From contig NC_087074.1 in the NCBI RefSeq assembly GCF_026151205.1, positions 12,381,182 to 12,445,181 on the forward strand: a stretch of 64,000 nucleotides of DNA, given 5' to 3'. Below the pieces are notes generated by a model that was not told the origin of the DNA, did not search any database, and saw only the letters and a list, made by a program, of their open reading frames with translations. Of the stretch, positions 20,701 through 57,746 are shown one piece after another. Positions within the stretch are counted from its first letter, which is position 1; the number at the start of each line of letters is the position of its first letter. The stretch comes from Bolinopsis microptera (Eukaryota; Ctenophora; Tentaculata; Lobata; Bolinopsidae). A program made the translations under genes and the position numbers.

Positions 20701-23700
20701 CAGCAGCTAACCAAGGTACACATTTGTTTATAAGTTATCAGCCAATCAAATAGTTAATGTTCTTTAGACGCCCGAGTGGTAATCATGGTTAATCCAAGAA
20801 TTATGAATAATTTCATTTGTTCTATTGATGACATAGGGTCATGATAAAGTAGTGGATGACCTTGCTGTACGGCAAGTTAAACAAGGATCTGAAACTACTA
20901 GGTTCCGTACAGACTCAACTCTGCACCCGTGTCAATATGTTCATTATATGCAAGCCTCTTGATTTATGAGATGATTCTGTGCATTAGCGCGTTTTAAGAA
21001 CTTTATCGGCAAATATTTTAAACTTCATATTTTGATGATATCCTAACAAATACACATACCTTTGTATTATGATGGCGCTGCTGATTTGTAGGTACATATT
21101 TTAGGAAATCATTACTGTATATTGTGTGTGTTTCCAGAACGAAGAGGTGCTGGATCACATATTTTATATACTTTCATTTGTCGTTAGAACGAGATTGATT
21201 TTTAAGCACATTACTGCTTACTTCATGCATATGTATACATATAAATCCCCGTTAATCATTGATGATGAGTGATGATTGACAATAATGCAATTGCCGACCA
21301 TTTTGCTTTGGCAATGTAGATTGTCAAATTCATCTTCAATATAGAAATAACACCCCCTTTTTCATGCTGATACAGATTTTGAAAAGTTTTGTTCAGGATT
21401 ACAAAGGAATAACTGACATACTTTGCAAGCCGTTCCTGTAAGTACAGTGTCATGCTGAATGACGTGTCGAAATTTCATCAGAATCTTGAAATTACTGTCA
21501 GTTTGATAAATTCTGTTTGAAAAATGTTGAAAATCCAATCAGTTATGCTGTTTATGTGTGTTAATGTCATCCAACAAGAATTATTTTATCCATGTTCTCG
21601 TTCATAAAAATCAACTTCTCTTATGCTAATGATAACTTCTCAACCCACCCACCAATGTCCACGAGCATTATGTAGCTCAAGTTTCTCATTATTATTTCAT
21701 AAGTTACCCAGGCACACATTATCTATCACTGTCTTTGAGATATCATTCATTGTTTGAGAATCGGTAGAGGGGGAGCAGAACTATTGAGCGGTGGACTGTT
21801 GAGCGTAGGACTGTAGGTAGGTGAAGGTCGGAAGTAGGACTGTAGAGCGGTGTCAAATCGCCAGGGTAGGACTCTAGAGCGGCCGCCCTTATAGATCTCA
21901 CAACATGAGGACTTTAGAGCGGTACGATCCTATAATGAGGACTGTAGAGCGGTAGACTGTTGAGCGGTGGACTGTAGGCCGGTGAAGGTCGGAAGTAGGA
22001 CTGTAGAGCGGCCCTCCCTTATGATATAACATGAGGACTCTATAGCGGTTGAAAATTTGAAGATTGAAAATTTGAAGATTGAAAATTTGAAGATTGAACA
22101 CTCAACGAAGCATTGTAACTCGTGATTGATTATGGTCATGACATTCTAGGATGATAACTTTATTAAAGAGTCATGGAGTTAATGAACATTTTCATTATGA
22201 ATATCTCATTACTAATATTATAGTGTATCTTTATTTAAGATTATTGGTCGGTCTCAACGTCTTCCAAAAAATTTGAACATTGAATAAAATTATGGTTTTT
22301 AAACTCGTAATCAATAACACACGTGATATAAGGATGATAAAATCGATAAAACTTATTTATATTACAAACAATTACGAAAAATCAATACTATAGTTAACAA
22401 ATATCAAAATAACATTTCACTCCTCAGCCATCACATTTCGCAGCATGTCCAGGTGTGAGACGAGGTCCTGATCATCGTTTACTTCAACTAGGTGGGCTAG
22501 TCGTACACGAGCCTTGATTCTCCGTTGAGGGATTCGATGAAGATGGGCTTCTCAGGAGGAGAAAGACTGTTAACACTCTGCATATTGTAGGTAGTTGTAG
22601 AAGAGGAGTAGGAATCGAATTTGATATACGAAAACTGGATACTCCGTGATATTTATACCATACCTTCGAAATCCTAACAAGATATCGCACTGCGATGGGA
22701 TCTGATCTGAATCAGTCCCGTCACCAGATTGATGAACATGAGATATTCTTAGTAGGCGCTAAAGCGTCACGCGATGCGATCCTCATTCCTAAATGATCTG
22801 CACGAACTTGATCGGTACTCTGCTTAGCGAAATCACATTGATACGAACAGTTCACTAAAATAACGAAGACACGTTTTACATTTTTGAGTAGCAGGTGAAT
22901 ATTTCAATCAATCATTTGGAAGACGTTGAGACCGACCAATAATCTTAAATTAAGTTACACTATAATATTAGTAATGAAATATATATAATAAGTAAATGAA
23001 AATGTTCATTAACTCCATAGTCCATGACTCTTTAATAAAGTTATCATCCTAGAATGTCATGACCATAATCAATCACGAGTTACAATGTATAACTTAGCTT
23101 CGTTGAGTGTTCAATCTTCAAATTTTCAACCGCTATAGAGTCCTCATGTTATAGGAGGGTACCGCTCTAGAGTCCTCATGTTATGGGATCTATAAGGGAG
23201 GGCCGCTCTACAGTCCTACTTCCGACCTTCACCGGCCTACAGTCCACCGCTCAACAGTCCACCGCTCTACAGTCCTCATTTTAGGATCGTACCGCTCTAA
23301 AGTCCTCATGTTGTGAGATCTATAAGGGCGGCCGCTCTAGAGTCCTACCCTGGCGATTTGACACCGCTCTACAGTCCTACTTCCGACCTTCACCGACCTA
23401 CAGTCCTACGCTCAACAGTCCTCCGCTCAATAGTCCTACAGCCGGTAGAGGCTGTGATATTTATGCATTGGTCTGACTGCTTGTTTATGGAATGATTCTG
23501 TCGAGGAAATGAATATAAAACTTAAAGTAGACTCTAGCAGCATGTCGCATAATATTTTTTGAGTTTAATTCAATAAAAATTGATATGAGGCATGAGCTAT
23601 TATCATATTCTTTACACTTTTAATTTAACTAATTTCACTACAACAAATCAATGCAGAGAAATTTGCCGAAATGATCAATGATGTTCCATCACGTTTTGAT

Positions 23701-26632: not shown

Positions 26633-29600
26633 TTAGTTGTCCTCATGTGTCTCTAGATCAACATCGTCTAATAAAATATGGTTAAGTTCCGAGGAAATAA
26701 CAGAATCAGTGTCGTCAGACCGTGTCCTCAGGAGCAGTCTTTTCATCAACATTAGCATCTGTTTGTTCTGTTTAGAAATCTGGGAGAATTTACGGTTATG
26801 GGACAAGTGACATTTTTTTTCAATGCAGCAAATACCCTTAACTTCATTACAATCGCGTTTAAGGATTGGTTCACGGGTCGCTTAATAAATGTTATTTTAT
26901 TAACAAAACATTATTAATCATATTATTAACAAACCTCATTTAGTTGAACTTTCATCTTCTTCATCCTAATCTGATCTCCTGCTCTTATAGAATCCACCCC
27001 TGATCCAGCTTGTACTCTTACACAAAGCTCCGGACCATTAAACGGTAATCTATGAGGTCCGAAATATTTAGCCAGCAACTTAGACCCGAGAACTCTTGCC
27101 CTTGAGTTGGGATAGAATGTAACTTTACTTTGGTTTGTCTTCTCTAGATAGGACGCAGGTAGCAGGGCCTCCACCTAGGGGGAACAGAACTGAGCTAATT
27201 TGTTAACACAAAACCGACATTGCTGTGCAATTTATGATTTAGGTGAATGGAGCTAAACTTATTTGGAACAAAAATCGGAATTTCTTTCATAATTAATCGA
27301 TTACCGTACCTGGAAATTAATAAATTGATTAATTAATTACCATACCTGGAAAATAAGCTGTATTTTCATGATAGCTCTTTGTAACTCAGCTTGGTCGTAG
27401 ACTGCTTTTATATCGTCAACAGCTAAACCAACCTTAATGATACAACTTATTCACCATATCCACGTGAATTTTATTACTTGTTGAAATGTTAGTTATTGAT
27501 CACGAATAAATTAGAAATTGAAATGGTCTCAGTAACACTATCCACTCCAACAAGCACGTATTAACGTTTACATCGTGACTTATCTAGAACAACCCCAGGT
27601 TTAAACTCACCAGTAAGTTCATGAAGACAATGGGGACCACAATCACGAACAGCACAAACATTATTATCGTAGATTCAGGATAGTAGAGAGGATTCTCTTC
27701 GTTTAGGCTCTGAGGTGCCATATAGTTGTCGTATTCCATCTCTCCGGTCATCATCACAAACGTTCGCATAATGGAGTAACCCGGGTTGCTGTATGAGGGA
27801 AACTGAAATATTTTGCATTATGACTTCAGAACTCGGCATGAGCCATGAATGGTGGATGTTTTATTTCAACATGATTAAGTTTTCTCCCTTCCTAGAGTTG
27901 GCTGAGTCAGTGAACTATGAGCACAGACCGTATCAAATGTCAGTGTTAGATAAGACCTCCGTAGCATATTCAAATTAATTAATTAATTAATCAGTTACCT
28001 GAACCATAACCATGTTGAAGGTAAGTCCAAATGCAACTATAAAGAGGATCAGAACGACCATGATCTTCAAGAAAGTCTGCAGCACTTCTACAAACATGAC
28101 AATGTATATTCCTATGCCTGGAACTGATAAAGGATCTGTTAGTTAGGGCCTAAGGATATAATGGATCCAGATTCCAAAGTACCATGGAATTGTCAGAGAT
28201 TATTTTATTAATTTTCGCATAATATGGATCCCACCCCAACAAAAGTTTCAAACCCTAAATCTCACCTTTCTTAGGAACATCATGAAGTTCATCCACGCGA
28301 CGAGCAAACAAAACACACCGATCTGCCATTCTGTTTCACTGATAATCTTCTCAGGATAAAACACATTAACAGTAAAAAAGATTGACAGCGCAAAGAGAGC
28401 CAACTCGACAAAGTTCTGAATAGAGATATATTTGTGCCTCTGATACACCAGCTGTAGAAATTCTATTATAAGTCTGATAACACTGCTGACTATGGTTATA
28501 AGTCCCGATATGAACACCCACACTGACTTCTTATTCGTCTCCGGAATCTCCGAATTTCCCGCGAAATAAACGTTGGCTGTCTTATCATATTTTGGGTCGG
28601 AACCCGAACCATCATCCTCTATAAGTTTGGGATAGTATGGAGGTATTTGAGTCAAGGTGTACACAGTTAGAAAAACAAGGTAGAGTGCGTAGAGGAAGAG
28701 GTTGCCATAGTAGAAGTGTCTGCCATAAGCAGTCCACTTACAGAACACTAGACTAGTGACAAGGGGGTGACTCAGGAGCTCGCTTCTTTTGTTTTTTATC
28801 TGAGAGAGAGATAGACTCATGTGAGGTATGTGAGGTACAGATAATCTAGAAAAGGTAACACTGTAAATACTTCTTAATTAGAGTTTTATCTAGAACGAAT
28901 CTGCATCACTTAGTCAAACAGACAAATAAATCCATCAAAAGTTGTACCTTGTTGTAATAAGGAAAGATTTATAAAAGTTCCTGTGAATATTAAAATTTCA
29001 ATAAAAAATAATGATAATTAATTTAATGATGAATGATTCACAAACCATGAGATTGAGAGGGTTTATATGGTAGGAGGTCGCATCTTGAGCATTAACGATT
29101 TTAGACTCCGCTTCTGACTCATCGTTAAGGTCCGATGAGGTGATACTTTTATTGTCTTCGGATCTTGTCATCTCTATTTCTTTGTCCGTGATGTACTTGT
29201 AGTTGAATTGCACCTTAGGTTACATAGTTACAAGTGTGTTTCTGAGGGGCCACATCAGAAATAAACGTACGCTGGAATCAGAATTTGAAGAAAGCATCTC
29301 TCAGTTTACAGTTAACTGTTTGTGTACCTCGTAGTTAACGTTGTCAGTAGTCATCTCCGACGGGTTATTGGTCATGTCGGTGCACTTATTCAGCACTAAC
29401 TCCGCAACCTCTGGCATGAACCTTATCAGTTTCTTCATTGGAGTGTCCCCGTTCATTTGGGCGTTTGTCAGCGCTTTTGGCCATGAGGGCCTTCCCCATT
29501 CATCTTGGTGACTGAAAGTTGAACGATTATCTCTTCATTAAAATGATTAATACAAGTCGAGTGGCTGACCTCAGATTAAAGATTGATAAAATGAGACAAA

Positions 29601-32600
29601 CAAAACTCAAATATATTTATGAAGATTAGAGACAAAATTGTCTATCTTACTTGATGATAGATTCAGCTACTTCTCTATTGTTTGCCAATATTGCCAGCTC
29701 TAGAGCATTCATATCGTTTACGTCTACCAGACCGATATTAGCATCGTTATTCAGGAGGAAAAGGACCGCATCAACATGACCTGAAAAATAAAAGTTTTTG
29801 ATTGATTTCAGTAACAAAATTGTGAAACATAAACTTCGTTATTTAAGTCATTGCATTGCATATCGTAAATATAATCATGATAGAGTAGAGCTCACTACAC
29901 CTTCTAAAACTAACCGTTCTTAGCTGCGAGATGAAGAGGGGTCAACTTTGCCTTGTCAATAGGATCAATCTCAGCATCAGCATCCAACAGAGCAGCCATG
30001 ACCTTGGAGTTACCCCTGGAGGCAGCACAATCCATGGGGGTCCACCCAAGTTGGTTGCGGGCCCCAACCTCAGCTCCCATGTCACAGAGGTAAATGGTCG
30101 TGTCCACGTGGCCGTTCAGAGCAGAGTAATGTAAGGGATGGTTCCCGTAGTCGTCCTTGTCTTCCAGCTGGGAAATATCAGCTTTAAAAGTTTTTTACTT
30201 GGGCATTGTGCGCCTAAACTGTAATAAGTATAGCACGATTTTTAGCTGCAATAGGCAGTACTGGTAAGTGGTACACTGTACAGCTGTTCCAGAAATCCAA
30301 CAATTTCAATAGCGTTCTTTTTTAAGAATACGAATCGACGCTAATTAACAGACGATAGTCATCATCACTCAAATTACCGTGGCCTTGTCCGCCTTGACAA
30401 GTTCCTGCACACATTTCAGCTTTCCTTTCTCAGCTGCGAGATGAAGCGGACACTTATCATCCTCGTTCTGAGCATTTATCTCGAACTTAAACTCCAGTAG
30501 CTCTCTCAGACATCCGAGGTGACCAAGCTCGGCGGCAAAATGTAGAGGGGTGTTTTGGAACCTGTATTAGACTTGGTTTTAGGACAGTCTAAAAATAATG
30601 AATTTAAAGTATACAGTAGCATATCAATTTCAAAGACATGTTATCTTGATTTCTAATAAGATATTCCTGTCAAAAAATGAAACATTAATTCCATGTTTTA
30701 ATGAAATCTCTAATTTCGAAAATGTATGTTTTACATTCTCACTCACTTGTCAAGCTCACTGTCTATCAGTCTCTCTCCGCCAGCTTCCAGAATGATCTTC
30801 AAAACGCTTGGCTGGTTCTCCCTAATCGAAGCAAACACTGCACTGTTTTCCCGTTTGTCCCGAGCAGTGGAATCAGCTCCTAGGTCCAGTAGGAGGGTTA
30901 TTGAGTTAGGATGACCCCAGGCCGCAGCAGTGATGAAGGGTGTCGAACCGTCCCTGTCTGCTGCGTTTATGTTCGCTCCTCTGAAGGGAATATTTGGTTA
31001 TCTTAATCTTTCAGAATGTGTAGTTTCCCGCAGAAGTTCGACAAAATATCTAAAATAAAGATTGTTCCCCGAGTTCAAACCTCCAGAACATATAGCATGT
31101 TGAAATACATTCAATACTTAGTTCAGATTTGTAGTAACAAATAACGCTCCAAACATCACTTACTTGTCAGACAGATATTGAATAACTTCAGTCTGATCAG
31201 CTTTAGCCGCCTCGTGCATAGCAGTTTCTCCAGCTATGTTCTTAGCCTCCAACGGACACCCAGCATCCACCAGCATCTTGACCACCTCTGTGTGACCCTT
31301 GTGTGCGGATATATGCAAAGCTGTCTCCCGCTCCATCGTCCTGAGATTCTGATCAGCTCTGTTGTTCAGAATGAACTCTACCACGTCAACCCTTCCGTCT
31401 TTACAAGCTAGATGAAGACATGTGAACTTCTCCTCTCCTGCTTTGTCAAGATGTCCCTTCATCTTTAGGTCAGTCTCTCCCATTGCTTTCTTGAACTTTC
31501 TTGTCAATTATCGTCTTGACAAACCTGTAGTTTAATGGATCCATTTCCTTGGCCTTCTTATGAAGTTGCTTCATCAAAGATGACACATGTTTAGGGTATG
31601 TGGACACAGTCTTTACACCGATCAACATACAGAGTGAATTGAACTGCCTGCTCTCGTCATTATCTCACTCATGATGCTGTCTATACTCTCTTTTAGCTCC
31701 AAAGATTTGATACGACTGTACACCAGCTCTACGATCTCCAGGTCGGCTTCTCTACAAGCCAGGTGAAGAGGGGACATGTTCTCCAAGGAGTAGACCCGGG
31801 GATTGCAAGGGTGCTCTTTGTTGAACATCAGTTTCTTGATACAGGGTATGTCTTCGTATAGAATTGCCATGTGTAGGGCTGTCTCACCTTGTTTGTCTGA
31901 GATGTAGCTATGTTTAACAAGTGTTTATCTTACGAGACGAGGACACAGGTCAATTCCCGTTCTGCTATCAAAACATCAAAAATAAGACCTAAGAAGGATC
32001 TGTATAATTCAGTTCTCGGATAATATCAGTTCAGAAAATACATACCTCTCAAATTGACTTGAACATTGTACATAAGTACATACCTCTAAGATTGACTTGA
32101 ACATTGTTTATCTTGAGCAGCTCCAGAACTGCGGGGTAGTTACCCCTATCAGCAGCACAGTGAAGAGCAGTCAGTCCGTAGTCATCTTGAGCATTAACAT
32201 CAGCTCCGTTCTCTGCCAGGGACCTAATAGGTGGACTTCCTTCTTCCTCTGCGATCTCTTCTTCCACTGAATTTGTTATTATTTTAGATAAGGGCTACAT
32301 ATATAATAGGAGGATACCACGTAGGTTTACATATTAGGTTGGAACTTGTTAGGAACCTTTAGAATTTTTCTTCATCCTTTGAAGCTTTTACCTTGAATTT
32401 AAACAATTATAACTAACCTGTCTTAATTATAACTAATTATAATAACCTGTCTTAATCCGCTGAGTGTCCTTCCTGTGGAGAAACTTCTTTATAGCAGAAA
32501 CTGCGGCATCCTCCGACGTTATCTTTTTGATGACTTCCTGTTGGACCGCCTCTATGTCCTGAAGTTCAATTGTTCTAGCTTCTAACTGTGAATGAACGTT

Positions 32601-35482
32601 AATTGTGAATCAGAGGGTTCAGCTGAGATTCAGATTAAGTACTCTCAATTCAAATTAAGATGCATAAGACCCACCGGATCTAATGGGGTGGAATAAACTA
32701 TAACTATGAATCATGAATATTCAACTCTCAATGATATCTTTAGACCTGCAAAATTTCTTCATCCCCATTTGCTATTTCCTCTGCCTCTTCTACGTCATCA
32801 TCCTTACTCGGCTCGTCATCATCATCTTCCTCTTCCCTCGTTTCATCTTTACGGTTAACATCAGGTCTCATAGGAACGTAAGCCATTTGAGCTGGGTTCA
32901 GTGCTGTACCCTTTGGGGCGTATCTAGTTGCGTGATGTAAAGGTGTCTGTCCATCCTCGTCCTTTACATTAACATCTGGAAGGACATTTTATAATATCTC
33001 TAGAAGTGAGATCAATCTGAAGATACCAAGCATACATAATATAATAGATTAGTACGTAGACGCCGGTACTCAAAGAGGCCAAAACTCACGATTCTAGGAC
33101 AAGTTTGCCGATCAGGAAAAGAGCTCCTAAAAGTAAAGATCTCACCTGCTCCATGCTCAATAAGCAGCTCCATAACATCAACGTTGTTGTACCTTGCTGC
33201 ATAGTGCAATGCAGTGAACCCCTCTCCATCAGGGGTATCTATGGGATTCTTCCCTCCTTTGGAGACTTTGTCTATCTTTCTCCGGAAGTGAACACTTGAT
33301 ATGTAACGTTTTATAACCTTGAGGTTACCCTCACGAGCTGCCTGGAATTTATGATTGATTTATTGCTAGAAGTACAATCTCTTGGCTTGCATATTAGAAT
33401 AAGTTTTGTCGTAAAGCTTAGAGAGAATTCGTTCAAAGATTTGGCTAGGCCTTAAGTAAGAAAGTAAGAAAATGTAAAATGAAAGGGAAAGTCAAACAAA
33501 TTCACTTGCAGTAAGCTCACTATACTACTATGAAAAAAATATTTCTCTGCTAGTTTATCATACCTGCTGAAAGTCGATACCCCCAGCATTGTCCTTGATC
33601 TGATGTATATCATCTAGTGTAAACTGCCTCCCGATCGCTGAAATAAGTTCAGTTCATTAGTTGTTGATAACATTCAGAGTTTTTAGACAGTATAATTGTA
33701 AAAAGAAGTAAAGTTCAGAGTTCAGTTCAGTATACTCAATATGAGTGGACCATTTTTATCAACTGAGGAACCACATCTCAGAAAATGTAACCAATAATAA
33801 TTCTTCAGACATATTTCCAGCAACTTTCCAGCAACTACCAATTTGATTTTTTTGTTTGTTCTAATAATATTGCACGCAGCACAACTATTATTGAACCCTA
33901 ATCCTGTTTACAAACGTTAAACTAGTGGTACCGGTTAAGGTACTGTCGTACGTGAGATGAAATGTGGCAAAATAGGCAGAGCCCCATCGATTTTATGTAC
34001 CTTCACGATTTAGAAATCTACGATACGCAGAGGCTGTTTCTGATTCCCGCAAGGATGAACTATCGTTACTCAAGTTACTATCAGATCGTACATACATAAC
34101 TCAAATTCTTCTCACGGTCCGTATTAATGCAGATTTGCAGAAGAATGTACGCTTAGCACTGTAATCAAGCACCAGCTTACTATCAAGCTATCACAAACGG
34201 TACTGCTGACTGCACAACAACAACAACGAAAAAGCTTAAGCTGATAAATGATATTATACTGTACTCTGATATGAGGTAACCTCACGGAGAATTAAAACAA
34301 AGAGAGGAATGCGCAAGGACGTTATATATACCAGAACATTGATATAACGTGCTTCGTGTGTGTATTGTGTATACATGTTGGCATGTACACTAATGAGTCT
34401 GCCTTAATTGGATGGCTCAAGTTACCTCCTGGCAGCTGACAGGAGCTAGATATAGCATCTCCTTGACGTTTCTAATGACCAGCAACACGATTACCCATTT
34501 AATATTTTCTTGTCGGTTCTATTAATATTGTAAAACTGCTGTTGAACCTTTCTCCTGTTTACATAATACAAATTATGTTAAACTATTGGTAACAGTTAGG
34601 GTAGGGATTGTGATCGAGGTTTTTGTGTGTTAATATTAACCGTTATACGCGAGTTGAAATAGCCTCGTAGACATTTAGACATTACCTTCATGTTTCAGAT
34701 ATCTACGATAGGCTGCTGCAGCTCCTGATTCCAGCAAGCATGAAGTTGAGCTGTCCGTGCTCCCACTGCTCAAGTTACTATCAGAACGGACGTACATTAC
34801 GGAAAGCGAATGTACGCTTTAGCACTTCTAAACTTACAATCAAGCAACGGTTTACTATCACTAAACTAAACTGGTCAACAATAAACAGGTTAAGCTGATA
34901 ATTGATACGCTGCTCTATAAGCTCATCTCACAGGATTTCGCAACACCTTCAAAAGAAAGAAAGAGCGAGCACCTTATACAGTATACACCAGATCACACAG
35001 TACACACAGAACATTTATACAAATTATAATACGATAATACCCTCGAAGTATCTGTTGTAACGTCCCTGCGGGTATTATAACATGGACATATAGTATATAC
35101 ATTATACATGCTGGTATAAGTACATGTACATTATTGTACATGTACTCTAATTAGTCTGTCTTCATTGGATGGCTCAAGTTACCCGCTGGGAGCTTACAGG
35201 AGAGATCTTTCATCTCCTTAACTTTTCTAATAACCGGTAAGTTACATTGTACTGAGTATTTGAGATGTAAATGAATCAAACATAATTAGTTGTGGGGGGC
35301 ACATACAGAAAATCCTGGCGTTAAGAATTACGGGTAATTTACAGAGGAGCGAACAAGTAAAAAAAGGGGGAATTTCATGGATTCAATTTACCTGAGAGAC
35401 CTGCAACTTTCGCAGAGTAACCGGATTTGAAACCGTGAACTGATGACAGTACCGAACTGTTGTATTTACCCCAGGACTTCAT
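26633..35482 (-). CDS. TRPA-type ankyrin-repeat cation channel with alternative first exons
   Basis: Exons joined by phase, in transcript order: one of three first exons (35392-35482, 34686-34797, 34001-34097), then 33564-33637, 33146-33341, 32746-32975, 32447-32585, 32084-32266, 31164-31896 (see frame anomaly), 30747-30980, 30378-30561, 29915-30167, 29651-29780, 29328-29511, 29046-29213, 28266-28799, 27999-28123, 27611-27802, 27346-27432, 26935-27174, 26633-26836 (stop). The product is about 1,400 residues. Many ankyrin repeats (LTALHCAADRGN, TPLHLAAKNG, NTPLHFAAELGH) precede the pre-S1 segment NKRSELLSHPLVTSLV, S1-S6, a pore with MMTGEMEYDNY, an S6 end VVPIVFMNLL and a TRP-like helix VGLAVDDIKAVYDQAELQR. 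A coiled-coil-like tail (SQISKQNKQMLMLMKRLL) ends the protein. TRPA channels are tetrameric calcium-permeable sensors of heat, chemicals or mechanical stimuli in the plasma membrane. The junction 28266/28123 does not match in phase by simple reading. Stimulus specificity cannot be told. Confidence 0.88.
34001..34097 (-). CDS. TRPA alternative first exon C (duplicate of B)
   Basis: ATG at 34095-34097; 32 codons plus one base; donor GTACAT. It begins MYVRSDSNLSND and ends YRRFLNRE, paralogous to exon B 685 bp upstream. The phase-1 end fits the exon at 33564-33637, whose first two bases complete an Ala codon. Confidence 0.75.
34407..34426 (-). promoter_or_regulatory. Conserved 20-bp block upstream of TRPA exon C
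   Basis: The plus-strand sequence ATTGGATGGCTCAAGTTACC is identical to the block at 35164-35183 although the surrounding duplicated DNA has diverged. It lies about 310 bases upstream of the exon C start codon. A role as a promoter-proximal control element is inference from its preservation. Confidence 0.4.
34686..34797 (-). CDS. TRPA alternative first exon B (duplicate of C)
   Basis: ATG at 34795-34797; 37 codons plus one base; donor GTAATG. It begins MYVRSDSNLSSG and ends YRRYLKHE. Exon C has the same start and end motifs with a diverged, Ser-rich middle. Flanking DNA is duplicated on both sides, so the exon was copied with its putative promoter. Confidence 0.75.
35164..35183 (-). promoter_or_regulatory. 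Conserved 20-bp block upstream of TRPA exon B
   Basis: Perfect copy of the 34407-34426 block, about 365 bases upstream of the exon B start codon. Neighbouring sequence (CTCCTTAACTTTTCTAATAA versus CTCCTTGACGTTTCTAATGA) is also kept. Confidence 0.4.
35392..35482 (-). CDS. TRPA alternative first exon A (distal, unrelated sequence)
   Basis: ATG at 35480-35482; 30 codons plus one base; donor GTAAAT. The peptide starts MKSWGKYNSSVLSSVHGF and is not related to exons B and C, but it ends in the same phase 1, so it can splice to the same exon 2. Whether it is used is inference from phase, strand and position. Confidence 0.6.
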
Positions 35483-37419
35483 TCACATTGGGCTCCCCGC
35501 CAAGATCAGATCAACTTATACTTTTACTTAAAACTTCCAAATGAATTAAAAATAGCTGTAATTTGCAATTCACTGCTATTTCAATTAAATAATATTTTAA
35601 ATCAAAACGACGTTTGCACAAATAATGAAATATAGTGTGCCTCCAGTAACACTGATAATAAAGCTTATCTCGCACATTTCAATTAGGGTAAATGTAATCA
35701 CTGTAATGGCGTTATGGACTCAGGCCAAAAGGCTCAAATGACAAACAACAATGACGTGGTTGCAATGAAACCTCTTGAATGTGACCAGCTGACAAATAAC
35801 CACGGGCATTATACATTATGGTCACCTAGCAATCATCATAAACAAAGATCTATTATAGAAAGTTTCCTAGTTGCATTATTGAATTGGGGCACTATTTAAA
35901 CATTCGATCGCGCACAAATGAAATCCAATTCAAGCCGCAAACCCTAACTAAGTGTCACAAAAGTTTAAAGTACAATTTTAAGTTTAATTGAAAGTAAATC
36001 GTTATTTCAGACCAATATTTACGATATTTTGCAGTGAGCTGCCCTTATTATATTATATATATATAATTACTAACCTGAAAGCCCAAAAATTGAAACCTCT
36101 CTCGAACGGTTGGCAAAAACTTTCGCCGCTTGCAGGGTACCATTATGTTTTCCTTTGGGCCTTGGCTTCATTTAAGTTTCCCCCGTAATCAAACGATCAC
36201 CACAAAAAGACTTGAGGAAAACGATAACGGATAATTTAATGAGGAGCAGGAACCTTAATTAAATGTAGATACTGATCAGTAACAGAACGACTGTAGTAAA
36301 ATTAATTACGCAAAATTTCAAACCAACGTTGTTATAACGGCTGTGTAACAAACATTTAATCCCCACATTTCTTTAGCACAGGGTGACACTCTTATTCAAG
36401 TCTCACGCGTGTGAGTGTATGAGCTCTGCAGTTAATTCAATTTGGAGACCAAGATTGCATTTTTATTCCTACCTTCTGTTCTTTATTCTCTGTACGGTTT
36501 AGGAGAAGTGTTTTTGTAAGTTTCGCCGGGAACCCGAAGAGTGATCCCATTTAACTCCCCTTCTTCATGCTCATCCATTTCAAATTTTTATCAGCTAATT
36601 ATGCCCTATACTACAATTACCTGTAACTTTTAAAATGTTTGGTCCAATATTAATATTCTTCAGACTATACTGATTATTAACGATGAAAGGGTGTGTGAAT
36701 ATAAGTTCCGATTGCCGAGCTGTTGAAATAAAATTATAGAGGCTGATTTTCAACAAACGAAAAACAGAAGACAATCTTTAAACTTTGCAGGAATTTGAAA
36801 AAGAGAATGTTAGGAGACAAGTTAAACAAGCACAATGCCGAGAGAAATTTCAGCTCAACCCTCAACTCATAGGAAGCACATATATCTGTACCGAATGTAA
36901 TATTGGATATAAAACTCATTAGTGAAGCACACAAGAGAATGATATCAGGACTAATGAACATGATCATCATCAGTGATCACGCACAGAATTAGCGGACAAC
37001 TATTTTGAGAGCAGAAACTAACGGTGTTGTTAGTATCTACTCGTGATTTCAGTGCTGGCTCGACTGCAGACTTTTACAAGCCGCATGCTATCAGATAACT
37101 ATCGTGAAGAAATCAAACCAATGACTCGTCGATAACGCATGTCAATATTGTTGATATATTTTGATGTTGTTGCATTCCGAAAGCTGTTGCCTGTTCGTCG
37201 AACGATTGACAATGTTGATTCTTGAAGAGCTCATTGGTGATGTGGTACGAAAATGAATATCGCAAAAATGGACGCCTGATTATAACGAAATCATTAGTTA
37301 GGGTCAATTAGTATTGGTTAAATGACCACAAAGCTCTCATTAGTCATTACGTGTTCGAAATCTGAGCTGTATACTGTATAGTGAATAGCCCCTAGAAAAT
37401 GTCTATCTCGAAATGTTAC

Positions 37420-37519
37420 CTTGCACTCTTGTACATCGTCGTCGTATTTGATGATCCGGTAGTTCCGGTGGAAGCGTTGTCCCTCCGTTGTACTGATTTC
37501 TTAAATCGGTCCAGGACAT
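37420..37519 (-). CDS. Candidate distal first exon (phase-1 donor), possibly TRPA
   Basis: ATG at 37517-37519 opens 33 codons (starting MSWTDLRNQYNGGTTLPPEL) plus one base, ending in a GTAACA donor. Upstream on the same strand, about 160 bases away, are TATATATA and TATAAAA elements. The phase is the same as that of the three TRPA first exons, and no other gene lies between on this strand. The exon is supported only by frame, donor and position. Confidence 0.35.
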
Positions 37520-43659: not shown

Positions 43660-45303
43660 TTATTCACCAAAGTAGTAAAGAACAGGCCTTATTTTGATCA
43701 TACTGCCCCAATACCAGGCCCGTTTTGAGGGTCCTGCAACTGGGAACTCCAGACTGTTGTCGTAAAAATAATGGGGCCCCCAACACCAGTAATGTTTGCT
43801 TCTATCACGACATGGCTTCCCAAACCATGTTACTGGGCACGCTTTATCGATAACATCTATTGTCTCATTTAAATCTGGATAGTGAAGTATACTTCTAATG
43901 TCAATAGCAAAGTGGATGTCCTCAGCAGGTGTTGAATCTACGAGGAGCTGTATGTTAAAGGATTCGTCTTGGGCACCTGAGGCAGCCGATACTCGTAGGA
44001 TGAAACCACAGTCACTTCCTTTGGTGCAGCTTTTGGTAAATCGTGGATCAAATTTGAACTTAATGTCGTGATTCCTACCGAACAGTTCGTCTGGAGTGTA
44101 CTCCCTGGTTGCTGATATAATATGGCACTCGTCCTGATAACCAACCAATAATTTGGGGTTCTGCAAAATCATTTCACTAAGTTCACCAGTCCAGCACCAT
44201 TTCTTCTCTTTGATGTATTTTGGAGCCAAGGGTTTCCATCCACTTTTCGATGCATGTTGTGCGAATACCTCAACAAACTCGTTTGTTATAGAGGCAAATG
44301 GGGAGAAGTCAGGGTTAGATTTATTAAATAACCAACTGTAGATAGCATCGTAGAAAATATAAGAATTCTTCACTTCGCTACAGTTTGTTAAGAACTTGGT
44401 TAGTTCATCAAGATTATCGATACACTTAAGATGTTTAAACTCATGATTGAACAAGTTTGGAAGAGGTGTGAACGAGACAAATCCCACTTCTTCCGTTACC
44501 ACTGAAGATCTGTAGAATTTTTGTATAATCTTCATTGTTAGTTTATAATCATCTTTTGTCGGATTTTTAACTTCTTCCAGGTATCTAAACAACCGTTCGT
44601 ATAATCCTCTGTGAGCTTGCTGACATGCTGCAAAGTTTAGTTTCTCAAGGATATATCTGCTGTTCGAATCTATTGAAGATTTGTTAGCTTCGAAAGTTTT
44701 ACAAAGGACTTCCACAAGAACTATTTCCTGTTTTGCGGTCATCTCGATGATCAAATTCAGATTCTCCATTGGGCATTTTGAAATATCATTCAGATAGTGC
44801 GTCACGAAGTGCTGTGTGCAAGATGTCAGGGATGTAAACTTTTTTATGACAGTGTCGATGTAGTTTCTATGTTTGAGTTTTTCTAGAATAAACATTGCCT
44901 CATCGAAAACGTATCGTTGACAGTCAAAGTCATTTACCGTAACCTCATCTGTAAGTGATTGGAAATAGCCTAAGCATCGTTCAATGAGCCATGTCACTTC
45001 AAATGCATTAGCCATTTTGTTAACACCCCGAAAATTTAGCTTGGAGATCTTTTTTATGTCTCCGCTATAGGACGCTTCGAGGAAGCATTGCACCGCATCT
45101 TTAGAGAATTCTTCAACTTCAATGGTGCTTTGGAAGAGATGCGTTGTCATTCTGTCAACGACTTGGCTGTTGTAAGAAACAATCATTGAGTTAGCAAGAA
45201 GTTCTTCTCCAGATTCAAGAAGAAACTTGAGGTTGCTGTGAGCGGGAGATCCTAGGTATTGTATCCCAAAATCCATCGGAACTTGTACTCGAGGAATCAT
45301 CAT
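43660..45303 (-). CDS. Intronless BTB-domain protein (547 residues), paralogue of the BTB-GYF gene
   Basis: A single uninterrupted ORF. Residues about 20-115 are a BTB/POZ fold (HSNLKFLLESGEELLANSMI, then a hydrophobic core and AVQCFLEASYSGD), residues about 116-265 an alpha-helical BACK-like region (AMFILEKLKHRN, YILEKLNFAA). Such proteins usually bind CUL3 or dimerise. The C-terminal half (about 268-547) contains an EKKWCWTGELSEMILQNPKL segment and a Trp/Cys-rich end (HYWCWGPHYFYD, RAWYWGS) that I do not recognise; it may be a substrate-binding beta domain. The first 267 residues are closely similar to the gene at 49682-51046; the C-terminal half is not. The ATG at 45298-45300 is an alternative start and matches the paralogue's start. 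Confidence 0.8.
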   Translation of the reverse strand: MMIPRVQVPMDFGIQYLGSPAHSNLKFLLESGEELLANSMIVSYNSQVVDRMTTHLFQSTIEVEEFSKDAVQCFLEASYSGDIKKISKLNFRGVNKMANAFEVTWLIERCLGYFQSLTDEVTVNDFDCQRYVFDEAMFILEKLKHRNYIDTVIKKFTSLTSCTQHFVTHYLNDISKCPMENLNLIIEMTAKQEIVLVEVLCKTFEANKSSIDSNSRYILEKLNFAACQQAHRGLYERLFRYLEEVKNPTKDDYKLTMKIIQKFYRSSVVTEEVGFVSFTPLPNLFNHEFKHLKCIDNLDELTKFLTNCSEVKNSYIFYDAIYSWLFNKSNPDFSPFASITNEFVEVFAQHASKSGWKPLAPKYIKEKKWCWTGELSEMILQNPKLLVGYQDECHIISATREYTPDELFGRNHDIKFKFDPRFTKSCTKGSDCGFILRVSAASGAQDESFNIQLLVDSTPAEDIHFAIDIRSILHYPDLNETIDVIDKACPVTWFGKPCRDRSKHYWCWGPHYFYDNSLEFPVAGPSKRAWYWGSMIKIRPVLYYFGE

Positions 45304-49681: not shown

Positions 49682-51046
49682 CTAAGAGTTCCTGCTGGAT
49701 TGTCCAAGATTCATCTGCTGCCACTGTTTCTCAAGGCTAGAAGTTGAGGAGTGGAAGTTTTCTGTCGTATTCCGGAGGTTGTCACTCTGGAAGTTGTAGC
49801 TACAAGGAGGTGGTCCAGCGCCAGACTGGAACGGAATACGACCACACTGCTGGATCAAAGTTTTTAATGGTATAAACTGTGAGTCAGCAGATAGCCCTAT
49901 CATGATATCCCTCCCAAAGTATCCTTCTTTGTACCAGCTGAACATTGTAACCGAGTTAAATGGACCTTGAGGGTTTCCTTGTTGATCAAGGTAGAACCAC
50001 ATCTCGTCTGCCCGATAAGACTGAGGTTTTGATTGAGGGGGGTTCTGCAGACGCCTCAGTAACTCGTCTCCTGCAGCATTACTTTTGATGGATTGTCCAA
50101 TTTCTGCATCAGTGTGTAAAGGCGATGATTCTATAGCAAAAGAGTTGGGGTTTGACGAGGTTTTGTATTGGGTCGGAGTTACAACTTGTGCCTGTGGAGA
50201 GGGCAATGTTATTTGATGCGAAGAACTGCCACTGTTCAGTTCACATCTTATTGAGGATCTGTAAAATGTTTGTATAATTTTCATTATAAGTCTGTAGTCA
50301 TCTTTTGTTGGATTTTCGATTTCCTCAAGTTGTCTGAACAGCTTTTCGTACAGTCCTTTGTGCATCTCTTGAGATGCCGCAAAGTTGAGTTTCTCAAGAA
50401 TATATCTGCTGTTCGAATCTATTGAAGATTTGTTTAATTCGAAGTTTTTACAAAGGACTTCCACAAGGACTTCCTGTTTTCCTGTCATCTTCATGATAAT
50501 ATCCAGACTCTTTAATGGGCACGAGGATAGATTAGTTAGATAGTGTGTTGCAAAGTACTGAGTGAAAGATTCGAGGGATGTAAACTTTTTGATGACAGCT
50601 TCAATGAAGTTTCTCTGCTTGAGCTTTTCCAGAATGAACATTGCCTCATCAAAGATATACCTTTGAGAGTCAATTTCATTTGCCGTTACTTCTTCTGTAA
50701 GCGATAGAAAATAGCCAAAGCATCTTTCAATGAGCCATGTCACTTCAAATGCATAAGCCATTTTGTTAACATCCCGAAAATTCAACTTGGATATTTTTTT
50801 GATGTTACCGGAGTAGGATGCTTCGAGGAAGCATTGCACCGCATCTTTAGAAAACTCTTCTACTTCAATGGTGCTTTGAAACAATTGCGTTGTCATTCTG
50901 TCAACGACTGGGCTGTTGTAAGAAACAATCATTGAGTTAGCGAGAAGTTCTTCTCCAGATCCAAGAAGAAACTTGAGGTTGCTGTGAGCGGGAGATCCTA
51001 GGTATTCTATCCCAAAATCCATCGGAACTTGTACTCGGGGAATCAT
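49682..51046 (-). CDS. Intronless BTB-GYF fusion protein (454 residues)
   Basis: Residues 1-265 repeat the BTB and BACK-like half of the 43660-45303 gene with few differences. At FYRSS (261-265; near 50250) the similarity stops. A Ser/Gln/Pro-rich linker (266-345) leads into a GYF domain at about 349-406: W350, Y352, QGPF (360-363), W371, GYF (375-377), and GRIPF (402-406) followed by PPP at 412-414. The GRxPF...PPP tail matches GYF domains of the GIGYF family, which bind PPG-phi motifs and act with 4EHP in translational repression. The protein ends with a polar coiled segment (EKQWQQMN). A BTB could bring dimerisation or CUL3 binding to proteins that hold the GYF ligand motif; that role is inference. 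Lack of introns across the join suggests capture of a reverse-transcribed GYF segment or fusion of exon-internal sequence. Confidence 0.82.
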   Translation of the reverse strand: MIPRVQVPMDFGIEYLGSPAHSNLKFLLGSGEELLANSMIVSYNSPVVDRMTTQLFQSTIEVEEFSKDAVQCFLEASYSGNIKKISKLNFRDVNKMAYAFEVTWLIERCFGYFLSLTEEVTANEIDSQRYIFDEAMFILEKLKQRNFIEAVIKKFTSLESFTQYFATHYLTNLSSCPLKSLDIIMKMTGKQEVLVEVLCKNFELNKSSIDSNSRYILEKLNFAASQEMHKGLYEKLFRQLEEIENPTKDDYRLIMKIIQTFYRSSIRCELNSGSSSHQITLPSPQAQVVTPTQYKTSSNPNSFAIESSPLHTDAEIGQSIKSNAAGDELLRRLQNPPQSKPQSYRADEMWFYLDQQGNPQGPFNSVTMFSWYKEGYFGRDIMIGLSADSQFIPLKTLIQQCGRIPFQSGAGPPPCSYNFQSDNLRNTTENFHSSTSSLEKQWQQMNLGQSSRNS

Positions 51047-52621: not shown

Positions 52622-53674
52622 ATGAATCTATCAGCTGAACTACTCTACAAGAACAGTCCCCCAAGTTACGTAGAATGGATTCTGATGGCAACGTGGTCAA
52701 CCATCATCGTTATCATCTCCACAACAGGAAATATTGTCGTCCTGTTAGCAACAATCAAGTACAATGCCATCAAACTGGACGACATCTCCATGGTCCTGAT
52801 CAGAAACATAGCCATCGCCGACCTCGGAGTAGCCCTCTATATTGCATCCACCCTTCCTGGCATCATCACAAAACACAACCTCTACAGCGACCTCTTCTGC
52901 ATCTTCTCCAAAACCTGGTTCTACGCCTGTCTCTCTACGGAGGTTGTTCTATTGGCGGCTCTCAGCATTAGCAAACTGATGTGGATTTTGAGACCTCTTC
53001 AAGCGCTATCTCGTTCAAAGAAGAATGGAAGAATCATAGCATCATTGATATGGTTACTGATGATCTGCCTGACTGCTGGAACTACTATTTACAGGGAGTC
53101 CACTAAAGAGAACTGGACAGATTTCCATGAGGCGGTGTACCAGTGTTCCCGGGAGAACTACGACAAGAACTCGAACATTATGTTTAATGTTATGGTTATG
53201 GTATTTAACATAGTTCCCCAGTTAGTCATAACAGTCACAACAGTTTGGTTGTTATGCTTAGTAAGCAAGGCTGGTGCTGTACACAAACAGGGTTTAATCA
53301 CTATACTTTCAGTTTGTGCTCTGTTTTTTGTTTCTCATGCACCGTATGGTTTTATTTACCAAATACTAAAGAGATTTCTAGATGGAAGCTCTAGCAGTTG
53401 GTTTGGTGTACTTTACCGTTGGTCTTACTATATTGTTTATCTTAATTATGCTGCAAATCCTTTCATTTATTTTGCATCCATCGACAGTTTCAATAGGTTT
53501 GTTAAGCAACGACTTCTCAAGAGAGAGGCTCTTTCTTTGAGTGAGAGGAGCATTAGTCAGAGCTGCACGGTCTACAGAGTGGCCTCCATGCAGTCAAGAG
53601 AGACATTGTATTCAAGAAGAGGCACTTACAGTCAACGAATGGCAAGCATTAATTTAAACTCTGTTCAAGTATGA
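52622..53674 (+). CDS. Class A-like G-protein-coupled receptor, intronless (350 residues)
   Basis: Seven hydrophobic segments. TM1 has TGN (35-37), TM2 has IAIADL with the conserved Asp at 67, Cys93 and Cys175 can form the extracellular disulphide, TM6 has Pro241 in a SHAPY context, and TM7 has the intact NPFIY (279-283). The TM3 end, where DRY is expected, reads SISKLMWILRPL, so Asp-Arg-Tyr is replaced by Ser117-Lys118-Leu119; WxP in TM6 is also absent. A Ser-rich tail (SLSERSISQS, RGTYSQRMAS) offers phosphorylation sites. It is a plasma-membrane receptor; ligand and G protein are unknown. Single-exon receptors of this kind are common in cnidarian expansions. The start at 52622 gives a normal short N-terminus with one possible N-glycosylation site (Asn2). 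Confidence 0.85.
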   Translation: MNLSAELLYKNSPPSYVEWILMATWSTIIVIISTTGNIVVLLATIKYNAIKLDDISMVLIRNIAIADLGVALYIASTLPGIITKHNLYSDLFCIFSKTWFYACLSTEVVLLAALSISKLMWILRPLQALSRSKKNGRIIASLIWLLMICLTAGTTIYRESTKENWTDFHEAVYQCSRENYDKNSNIMFNVMVMVFNIVPQLVITVTTVWLLCLVSKAGAVHKQGLITILSVCALFFVSHAPYGFIYQILKRFLDGSSSSWFGVLYRWSYYIVYLNYAANPFIYFASIDSFNRFVKQRLLKREALSLSERSISQSCTVYRVASMQSRETLYSRRGTYSQRMASINLNSVQV

Positions 53675-55061: not shown

Positions 55062-57746
55062 ATCTTACTATATAGAGAAGATATTCTAATTTCAAAACTG
55101 ACAAAGTTCCCCAAAGATATGTCTCCAAATGATGCTGTCGTCCTTTACAACACCGTACTCACTCAGTTAATGGATAAACATTGTCCCTACATAAAAAAGA
55201 AGATTACTAAGAAGCCAATGCCCTGGTTAGATCTAGAACTTCGTATTCTCAGGCGAAAAAGAAGAACTGCGGAACGTGCCTGGAGAAAAGATAAAGTAGA
55301 TTATATAGACAGTGAAAGATCTGAGTACTTGAGATCTGATTATGTTAAGCTAAGAGATGAGTTTTCCCGAGTAGAGTTTGTTAAAAGATGTGCTCACCAC
55401 AAAACCTCTCTTAGGTCCTCTTCAGGGGATACTAAAGCATTGTACAAAAAAGTCAACAGACTTTTAGGAAATGACACCCAAAACCTTCCAAACTACAAGG
55501 ATCCTGTTAAACTATCAGAAGATTTTAAAGATTTTTTCGCTGAAAAGGTTGCTACCATCAGACGAGCCATTGAGAAGGAAGGAAAAGATTCTGTTAAAGA
55601 CAAAGACAAAGACAAAGACAAAGACAAAGACAAAGACAAAGACAAAGACAAAGACAAAGACAAAGACAAAGACAAAGACAAAGACAAAGACAAAGACAAA
55701 GACAAAGACAAAGACAAAGACAAAGACTAAGACTAAGACTAAGACTAAGACTAAGACTAAGACTAAGACTAAGACTAAGACTAAGACTAAGACAAAGATA
55801 TAAACAAAGACAAAGACAAAGACAAAGATATAAACAAAGACAAAGACAAAGACAAAGACAAAGACAAAGACAAAGACAAAGACAAAGACAAAGACAAAGA
55901 CAAAGACAAAGACAAAGACAAAGACAAAGACAAAGACAAAGACAAAGACAAAGACAAAGACAAAGACAAAGACAAAGACAAAGACGAAGACAAAGATATA
56001 AACAAAGACAAAGACAAAGACAAAGATATAAACAGAGACAAAGACAAAGACAAAGACAAAGACAAAGACAAAGACAAAGACAAAGACAAATACAAAGATC
56101 CTGTTCTTGATAAAGACTTCATCTTTGATAATTTCTCTGAGATAACAGCTGATGAACTCAAAGACCTGGTATCGAAGATGTCCAACAAGTTCTGCTGCTT
56201 GGATCCGATCCCAGCATTTCTCTTAAAAAACTGTGTCGCTGAACTGACACCTATTTTACTCCACGTCTTGAACTCATCCTTAAAGACTGGAATCTTTCCC
56301 TCAGATATGAAGAAAGCAGTCATCAAGCCGACTTTGAAGAAGGAAAATGCTGATGTTGATATTCTCAGTAACTATCGACCAGTCTCTAACCTCTCCGCCT
56401 TCTCCAAGATCCTAGAGAGAACTGTACTTAACCAGCTCAATGTCCATCTCACGACACATAGCCTTTACTCGGACGTCCAATCTGGATACCGCCCTAACCA
56501 CAGCTGTGAAACATTACTTGTAAGAATGTGTGATGATATTAACAAAGAAATTGAAGCTGGGAATGTTGTTATTGTTGTACTTCTCGACTTAAGTGCAGCG
56601 TTTGATACCATTGACCACACAGTCCTATTGGAAAAGCTTATGAAAGACTATGGAATTACTGGAAGTGCACTGCAATGGATAAAGTCCTACCTTGAGAAGA
56701 GACACTTCTGTGTGAAGATTGACAATACTCTTTCTACTTTCTTGGAGCTTTTGTTTGGAGTTCCCCAGGGATCACTCTTGGGGCCTATTCTTTTTATCCT
56801 CTATATCAAAGCTCCCCAGAAAATCGCGGCCAAATATGGTCTTGATATACAGCTATATGCAGATGATTCCCAACTGTGCATCTCTTTTCAACCAAACCGT
56901 GTGGTACAGTTCACTGATGTCCAAGACAGGACAAACAAATGTCTTGCAGAGATCAAAACATGGATGGTGAACAATTACATGAAACTGAATGAAACAAAGA
57001 CAGAACTACTGGTGTTAGGAAAGAGCCATGTTCTAAAAAAGTGTGAACTCAGTGTCAGACTACAATTCGGAAGCACTGAAATTCTACCTACGGAGTGCAA
57101 AGGAGACAGCTGGAAGAGTCTAGGTGTCAAATTTGATGAAACTTTAAACATGGAAAGACAAATAAATAATGTGAAAAGGAAATGTAGCTGGACAATGATG
57201 AACTTAAGAACTATTGGTCGTTACCTGGATGAAGGCATTAAATTAATGTTGGTGAAACAACTGGTTATATCTAAATTAGATTACTGTAATTCTCTGTACA
57301 TGAATCTACCCAAGACCAGATTAAACAAACTTAGATCCACCCTTAATGGGGCAGTTCGTTTCATCTATAACATAGAAGACAGAACCACGGACTCGGTTCC
57401 CTTCTATAAGAAGGCCCACATACTCCCTATAGACCAACGAATCTTCTTTAAGGTTTGTTTTCTAACCCACAAATCAGTCCACGGTACTGCACCTGATTAC
57501 CTAAAAGCATTACTAGATGTGGCTGTAGTGGATACAGAACTTTCAAACACCATGACCAGGTCGAAAAGATCTGGTGACCATCTCATGTTAAAGGTACCAA
57601 AGAATAAAAGGTCAAAAGTTGATGACAGACGTTTCTCAAGCCATGCACCGATTGCATGGAACTCTCTTCCAATGATGTTGAGATGTATTACTGATACCAA
57701 CTGCTTCAAGCGAATGTTAAAGAACCATTTATATAATCAGTTTTGA
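55062..57746 (+). pseudogene. LINE polyprotein (linker plus reverse transcriptase), interrupted by a repeat-derived stop array
   Basis: One reading frame runs from 55062 to the TGA at 57744-57746, broken only by eleven TAA codons at 55728-55790 inside the hexamer repeat. The reverse transcriptase looks intact: NYRPVSNLSAFSKILER, LLDLSAAFDTIDH (catalytic Asp), GVPQGSLLGPILF, QLYADDSQL (YADD), then the thumb and C-terminal domain (NKLRSTLNGAVRFIYN, SHAPIAWNSLP). The downstream part alone is open from ATG 56178 (522 residues). A mobile protein that lacks the endonuclease would not be autonomous. Confidence 0.82.
55596..56099 (+). repeat. Hexamer repeat (AAAGAC)n coding for Lys-Asp, with GACTAA and GATATAAAC variants
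   Basis: About 500 bp of AAAGAC units sit exactly in the spacer between the LINE linker and reverse transcriptase. Most units encode Lys-Asp in the LINE frame. A homogeneous block of eleven GACTAA units at 55725-55790 turns each Lys codon into TAA. Interspersed GATATAAACAAAGAC units occur near 55797, 55827, 55995 and 56025. Confidence 0.92.

Follow-up and report, generated by a model that had tools for sequence, protein, structure and literature searches.

Does a channel gene of a ctenophore possess alternative start exons that arose by duplication together with their upstream DNA, and how many N-termini would it then offer? This question is raised by a stretch of 64,000 nucleotides from Bolinopsis microptera (NCBI RefSeq assembly GCF_026151205.1, contig NC_087074.1, positions 12,381,182 to 12,445,181 of the forward strand), which is called the window in the following and whose minus strand carries a putative TRPA channel gene. 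Coordinates without a prefix are positions in this window. A first-pass annotation had described three alternative first exons in this gene, two of them a tandem duplicate, and had suggested that the duplication multiplied N-termini and promoters. The best reading of the follow-up analysis presented here is that two promoter/first-exon cassettes would feed a common channel body, which we regard as reasonably probable.

The TRPA gene and its candidate start exons

The TRPA exons lie on the minus strand, from about 34.8 kb down to position 26633, where the stop codon ends. Here, the common exon 2 (33564..33637; IGRQFTLDDIHQIKDNAGGIDFQQ) has a phase-1 acceptor and runs in frame into the ankyrin exons. 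The ankyrin-repeat stretch, exons 3 to 12 of the gene model, is marked by ankyrin matches and covers 29651..33341. It is followed by a TRPA1-like S1-S4 exon (28266..28799) and by the pore and C-terminal exons (26633..28117), which mutually form one open frame to the stop and lie, as assembled, one base off the preceding exon.

Among sequences of proteins with a solved structure, TRPA1 (7ykr) was the best match of the pore and C-terminal part with an E-value of 4.9e-30, the best other family being TRPV3 with 3.4e-4. For the S1-S4 part, the respective values were 2.2e-13 for TRPA1 and 0.002 for TRPV6. TRPN (5vkq) surfaced solely in those structure-sequence searches whose query includes ankyrin repeats, and the TRP domain is nearer to TRPA1 than to either TRPV or TRPN. 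The gene further displays the N-terminal ankyrin repeat array of a TRPA channel, with ankyrin Pfam models above their cut-offs and ankyrin matches in both parts searched. Since TRPA1 outscores TRPV by many orders of magnitude in both parts, the gene is, as far as its sequence tells, a TRPA channel gene of a ctenophore. The assignment to TRPA in a lineage other than insects, as made in the first-pass annotation, is thereby upheld: TRPA1 is the best solved relative of both parts, and the host belongs to a group distant from insects. A glutamate-receptor locus of this genome has its best match among all solved chains in ML032222a, a receptor with a Mnemiopsis name, which points to a ctenophore and probably to a lobate one.

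Translation confirmed three ATG exons at 34001-34097, 34686-34797 and 35392-35482, each closing one base into a codon and followed by a GT donor, and all three fit the phase-1 exon at 33564-33637, as had been reported. The proximal start exon (34001..34097, minus strand; MYVRSDSNLSNDSSSLRESETASAYRRFLNRE) comprises 32 codons plus one base, reads MYVRSDSNLS...AYRRFLNRE and ends at the donor AAG/GTACAT. The second copy (34686..34797, minus strand; MYVRSDSNLSSGSTDSSTSCLLESGAAAAYRRYLKHE) comprises 37 codons plus one base, reads MYVRSDSNLS...AYRRYLKHE, ends at the donor AAG/GTAATG and is the one tail of the pair that contains a cysteine. The third candidate (35392..35482, minus strand; MKSWGKYNSSVLSSVHGFKSGYSAKVAGLS) is phase compatible and has a donor score of 9.9; it shows no homology to the pair and does not stand out beyond chance. 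In-frame stop codons lie 6, 24 and 3 nt 5' of the ATG in the three exons, respectively, so the ATGs are credible starts, provided that the exons are used. Folding of the exon RNA gave no signal (z 0.06). None of the four start peptides submitted to Pfam, the pair included, obtained a match, which is uninformative either way.

Tandem duplication of the start exon and its upstream DNA

A local alignment of the units around 34001-34097 and 34686-34797 scored 171, whereas 60 shuffles gave a mean of 23.8 and a maximum of 33. This bears out the proposed tandem duplicate with a distance of about 700 bp, and likewise the claim that upstream DNA was copied along with the exons, since upstream and intron sequence are both duplicated. 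The proximal copy of the unit (33826..34490) contains an upstream block, the leader, the start exon and the 5' part of intron 1, and the second copy covers 34500..35245; both lie on the minus strand and their ends are approximate. Thus, tandem homologous first exons of compatible phase stand before a common exon, which is the arrangement of the UGT1 type. Within the intron-1 part, both units retain TGTAAACAGGA (33902-33912 and 34553-34563, minus strand), which we take to resemble a forkhead site.

Two trivial origins of the pair were considered. A dispersed repeat was rejected because a third copy was not found: when the whole genome was searched at the DNA level for the proximal unit, with very common words skipped, the only matches were this unit and, in two pieces, the second copy. 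An assembly artefact in which two haplotypes had been joined was rejected as unlikely. The divergence of the pair amounts to 22% in the exon and 33-42% in most of the flanking DNA, which far exceeds allelic levels such as the 3.2% given for Hormiphora in the accessible part of one genome study (PMC8527503).

Selection on both copies

Over 32 codon pairs of the start exons, dS is about 1.0 and dN about 0.14. Thus, the duplication is old and its synonymous sites are nearly saturated. Only 9 amino-acid differences are present, compared with a neutral mean of 14.0 in 5000 simulations with an equal number of substitutions (P 0.0048). The underlying codon alignment was built at the protein level and cross-checked by an alignment at the DNA level, in which all 97 aligned exon bases fall in the same codon phase. 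Here, the mismatches are distributed as 2/7/12 over codon positions one, two and three, the third position accounting for 12 of the 21 (P 0.019). The sole indel in the exon measures 15 nt, whereas none of the 15 gaps in the flanking DNA is a multiple of three, the last of them lying at a loosely aligned end. Because amino-acid changes are few, codon phase was held and the 15-nt indel contrasts with the non-triplet gaps in the flanks, both start exons have been maintained as protein under purifying selection since the duplication. This selection speaks for long past use; it is not evidence on the present state of the gene.

A conserved block upstream of each start exon

The non-coding part of the unit is not evenly preserved. 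A block at 34382..34485 (minus strand; 285-388 nt 5' of the ATG; families D1 and D4) and its second copy at 35139..35240 (minus strand; 342-443 nt 5' of the ATG) differ by 16 mismatches in 102 aligned positions (84% identity). Outside the block, 100 of 238 positions are mismatched between block and exon (58% identity) and 50 of 151 on the intron side (67%), so that conservation of the block exceeds that of the remaining non-coding sequence of the unit (Fisher P 6.8e-6). Synonymous positions in the exon are likewise less well kept than the block, with about 13 of 23 changed (P 1.2e-4). The simplest reading of this conservation is a regulatory element needed by each unit, which favours two promoters. 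The block, which precedes each start-exon copy, is probably a promoter element that each copy keeps.

Together, the selection on the exons and the conserved block strengthen the two-tail, two-promoter part of the original interpretation beyond what the raw sequence offered. The sequence evidence supports a start-exon duplication that carried its upstream DNA along and would thereby have multiplied the N-termini. Of the proposal that it multiplied "N-termini and promoters", two N-termini are probable and the copied upstream DNA stands, the promoter part is suggested by the block, and a third start is not supported.

A model with two cassettes

Phase-compatible exons in the right order precede the TRPA body, and for this reason the following model is proposed. 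A segment of about 700 bp, consisting of upstream block, leader, start exon and donor, would have been duplicated in tandem, and each copy would act as its own promoter plus first exon. In the mRNA from either unit, the first donor (after 34001 or 34686) would be joined to the phase-1 acceptor at 33637. The product would be one ankyrin-repeat channel whose inner N-terminus varies between two tails, one encoded by 32 and the other by 37 codons, with the junction codon in common. We further presume transcription of both units, a choice between them that varies with the cell or the stage, and an effect of the tails on gating or regulation of the channel.

Several observations weigh against this model. 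The block could have been conserved as an enhancer or as a non-coding leader rather than as a promoter. The donors of 34001-34097 and 34686-34797 score just 5.6 each on a scale on which the 17 donors of the gene, scored leave-one-out, range from -3.0 to 11.1. A codon-usage score misses both exons of the pair (-5.3 and -1.0), a score which is weak on short serine-rich stretches. Finally, the gene body shows two irregularities. From the exon 28117-27999 onward, the assembled sequence is shifted by one base relative to the frame of the preceding exon, so that the reading frame is not intact over the whole channel and breaks before the pore exons, and minus-strand positions 31489-31631 represent an intron whose acceptor is poor, or else coding DNA that contains frame errors. 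The latter stretch contains one stop-free frame with a codon score near zero.

These irregularities lead to an alternative in which one exon of the pair is used in practice, or in which the frame break is real and the whole gene recently died. It gains from the one-base break between the S1-S4 and pore exons, since the same junction before the pore exons is in frame in a paralogue described below, and from the junction at 31.63-31.49 kb. However, both start exons have been under purifying selection since an old duplication, and, these two places excepted, each exon of the gene is open in its own frame and the introns are of the GT-AG type. In addition, leftover indel errors are plausible, since the Bolinopsis microptera assembly was made via wtdbg and polished with pilon, as described in a section of PMC10232365. 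The frame break is thus either an assembly error here or the mark of a recently broken gene, and due to this the gene is filed as a TRPA gene and not as a proven working channel. The alternative as a whole is considered unlikely.

Further candidates upstream

The reported set of three alternative first exons stands for the pair 34001-34097/34686-34797, while the third exon at 35392-35482 is not supported, as it lacks homology and is a chance-level open reading frame (ORF) with a good donor. It sits just beyond the duplicated unit, and local alignment against shuffles revealed no DNA similarity to either copy of the pair. That it represents a third, unrelated start is rather doubtful. Two further candidates of the same phase were found on the minus strand at 36075..36171 (donor score 12.1) and 37420..37519 (donor score 6.8), neither of them beyond chance. 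The near-regular spacing of about 690 bp between the ATGs at 34097, 34797, 35482 and 36171 had suggested an array of four units, which was rejected because no DNA similarity exists past the first pair.

A more general version would be that 35392-35482, 36075-36171 and 37420-37519 are used as well, giving three or more starts in one array, in which some first exons are related and others are not. Both strands of the window were scanned for start candidates, defined by an ATG, a minimum of 25 codons and a phase-1 donor scoring at least 5.5. The scan yielded 26 candidates, corresponding to 0.89 per 4.36 kb of strand, or 0.7 without this region, whereas the 4.36 kb 5' of exon 2 contain six rows with five distinct starts, namely the pair, 35392-35482 (with two donors), 36075-36171 and 37420-37519. 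Around the paralogue, three loci gave 10 candidates in 47 kb of strand. Five phase-1 start candidates instead of about 0.7-0.9, the strong donors of 35392-35482 (9.9) and 36075-36171 (12.1), and acceptors 5' of their ATGs (score 6.7 at 73 nt and 6.3 at 119 nt, respectively) speak for further starts. The codon score of 35392-35482, which is the highest of the four scored (+3.2), points in the same direction; nevertheless, it says little, since this score misses the pair that selection marks as coding. Moreover, two of the five candidates represent one event, and three extra against 0.7-0.9 is a weak excess (Poisson 0.03-0.06). A modest excess persists after counting the pair once. The candidate units are also unlike each other and unlike the pair, with 0 of 14 other unit pairs exceeding the best of their own 60 shuffles. 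More than two starts therefore seem a doubtful prospect.

The paralogue

The contig carries a second TRPA gene at a distance of about 0.84 Mb from the first (C3:13.236-13.2525 Mb; loci L009 and L010), with 43% identity over the S1-S4 exon. Here, a counterpart of the exon 33564-33637 with its phase-1 acceptor is legible, matched by eye. In the 16.5 kb compared, however, neither the start exons of the window gene nor its upstream DNA had an above-chance match, and a pair of start exons was looked for in the paralogue and none was seen.

In the 12.6 kb before exon 2 of the paralogue, four donors with scores of at least 5.5 close an ATG frame of at least 12 codons, and none of these four resembles the start-exon pair. 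The nearest, L009:347-473, is a candidate start exon of the paralogue. Of the other three, two resemble exons of an adjacent gene, which we assume to be a D-aminoacyl-tRNA deacylase, and one sits in a local repeat. Two-copy direct repeats with spacings of 513-782 bp are present at L011:5353-6575, 0.8-2 kb before the candidate start; among the six ATG frames of at least 20 codons starting in them, none has a donor scoring at least 5.5.

Spliced leaders as an alternative source of two tails

Spliced-leader trans-splicing, which is common in ctenophores according to the portion of PMC8527503 at hand, is absent from the reading given in the first-pass annotation. It provides the main rival to the two cassettes: a single upstream promoter would serve the gene, the start exon would be chosen by the acceptor of the spliced leader or by splicing of an upstream non-coding exon, and the two tails would be the result of a splice choice. 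The same portion of that paper reports a spliced leader on 56% of the Hormiphora Iso-Seq reads and 491 occurrences of the leader motif in Mnemiopsis (PMC8527503), which lends this some weight.

Candidate spliced-leader RNA genes are present in this genome too. A pattern derived from the leader motif in the part of PMC8527503 that gives it matched 55 times genome-wide with at most 2 mismatches, compared with 27 times for a reversed control. Twelve of the 55 belong to one tandem array that is not leader-like (C8:7889749-7895419, spacings 513-518 bp). Six loci were taken and five of them compared in one orientation; L013, which has the motif on the opposite strand, was left out. In three of the five (L012, L016 and L017, with four copies; contig 13, about 12.79-12.90 Mb), AATTTGAG/GT is common to the copies and the DNA that follows it is alike; the remaining two have neither. 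When folded, L016 and the first copy in L017 display two downstream hairpins, the last of which is partly kept in L012 and in the other L017 copy. These three loci thus qualify as candidate spliced-leader RNA genes on account of the motif, of the similarity downstream of it and of the hairpins. Several further contigs carry a similar motif, AAACTATTTAATTTGAGGT. Within the window, AATTTGAG, the ctenophore leader end motif, occurs at 34100-34107 on the minus strand, two bases 5' of the proximal ATG. This is probably chance, as the window total is 9 with 5.3 expected.

If a leader acceptor selected the start exon, a strong acceptor common to both copies might be expected, but none was found: the best before the proximal exon, at 34435 (7.4), has a counterpart of 0.3, and the best before the second copy scores 4.1 at 35041. 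This test is low in power, since its matrix is derived from 17 introns and acceptors with a score of at least 6 occur at 1.7-1.8 per kb anyway. Overall, a choice by splicing behind one promoter appears improbable, and the two cassettes are retained as the preferred reading.

Other features of the window

Besides the TRPA gene, domain matches identified two minus-strand ORFs with a BTB domain, at 43660-45303 and at 49682-51046, the second with a GYF domain in addition, a domain pairing that is not familiar to us. On the plus strand, domain matches mark a single-ORF rhodopsin-family receptor of 350 amino acids (52622-53674) and an ORF with a reverse-transcriptase domain (56178-57746). Irregular repeats with a unit like GGACTGTAGAGCGGT are found at about 23140-23480.

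Comparison with known systems

In the open-access library searched, no report of this TRPA start-exon duplication was found. Three known systems resemble parts of the arrangement described here.

Alternative trans-splicing is known to alter the start of a protein or transcript, as outlined in excerpts on the proline/alanine transporter of Leishmania (PMC4637868) and on sma-9 of C. elegans (PMC2904332). One gene obtains differing 5' ends by the choice of the leader acceptor, just as the rival explanation requires for the TRPA gene. The difference is that a conserved acceptor pair was not found 5' of the two TRPA copies.

The UGT1-type clusters consist of tandem first exons, each with its own promoter, before common downstream exons, as far as the sections consulted describe them (PMC3325998, PMC1885805). 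The TRPA pair is similar to these as a two-member tandem set of first exons before common exons. In contrast to them, it has two supported members, very short exons that encode the tail only and an ion channel as product, and the promoter role of its block is a prediction.

A further likeness is the one to insect TrpA1, where an alternative exon 1, as in TRPA1(A) and TRPA1(B) of Drosophila, changes the N-terminus while the body stays the same, and chemical and temperature gating differ accordingly, as stated in the accessible text of PMC11471635. On promoters of these first exons, text on fly isoforms in PMC12132172 offered nothing. The ctenophore gene is a known plan in a new form, since variable first exons, and N-terminal isoforms of TRPA in insects, are already established (PMC11471635). 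The channel family is the same and an alternative exon 1 is placed on a common body; the ctenophore exons differ in being tandem duplicates with duplicated upstream DNA. To our knowledge, the alternative first exons of fly TrpA1 are not tandem duplicates of each other.

A wider scenario would be that N-terminal isoforms of TRPA evolved in ctenophores independently of insects, via duplication of a cassette of promoter plus start exon, perhaps with extra unrelated starts and spliced-leader choice, and that the cysteine in one tail could switch the sensing of reactive chemicals. In this full form it is quite unlikely. If both tails are used, the choice between N-terminal isoforms of TRPA would have arisen at least twice, and the route by cassette duplication leaves a clear record, namely two tails and two regulatory blocks, which can be compared and swapped.

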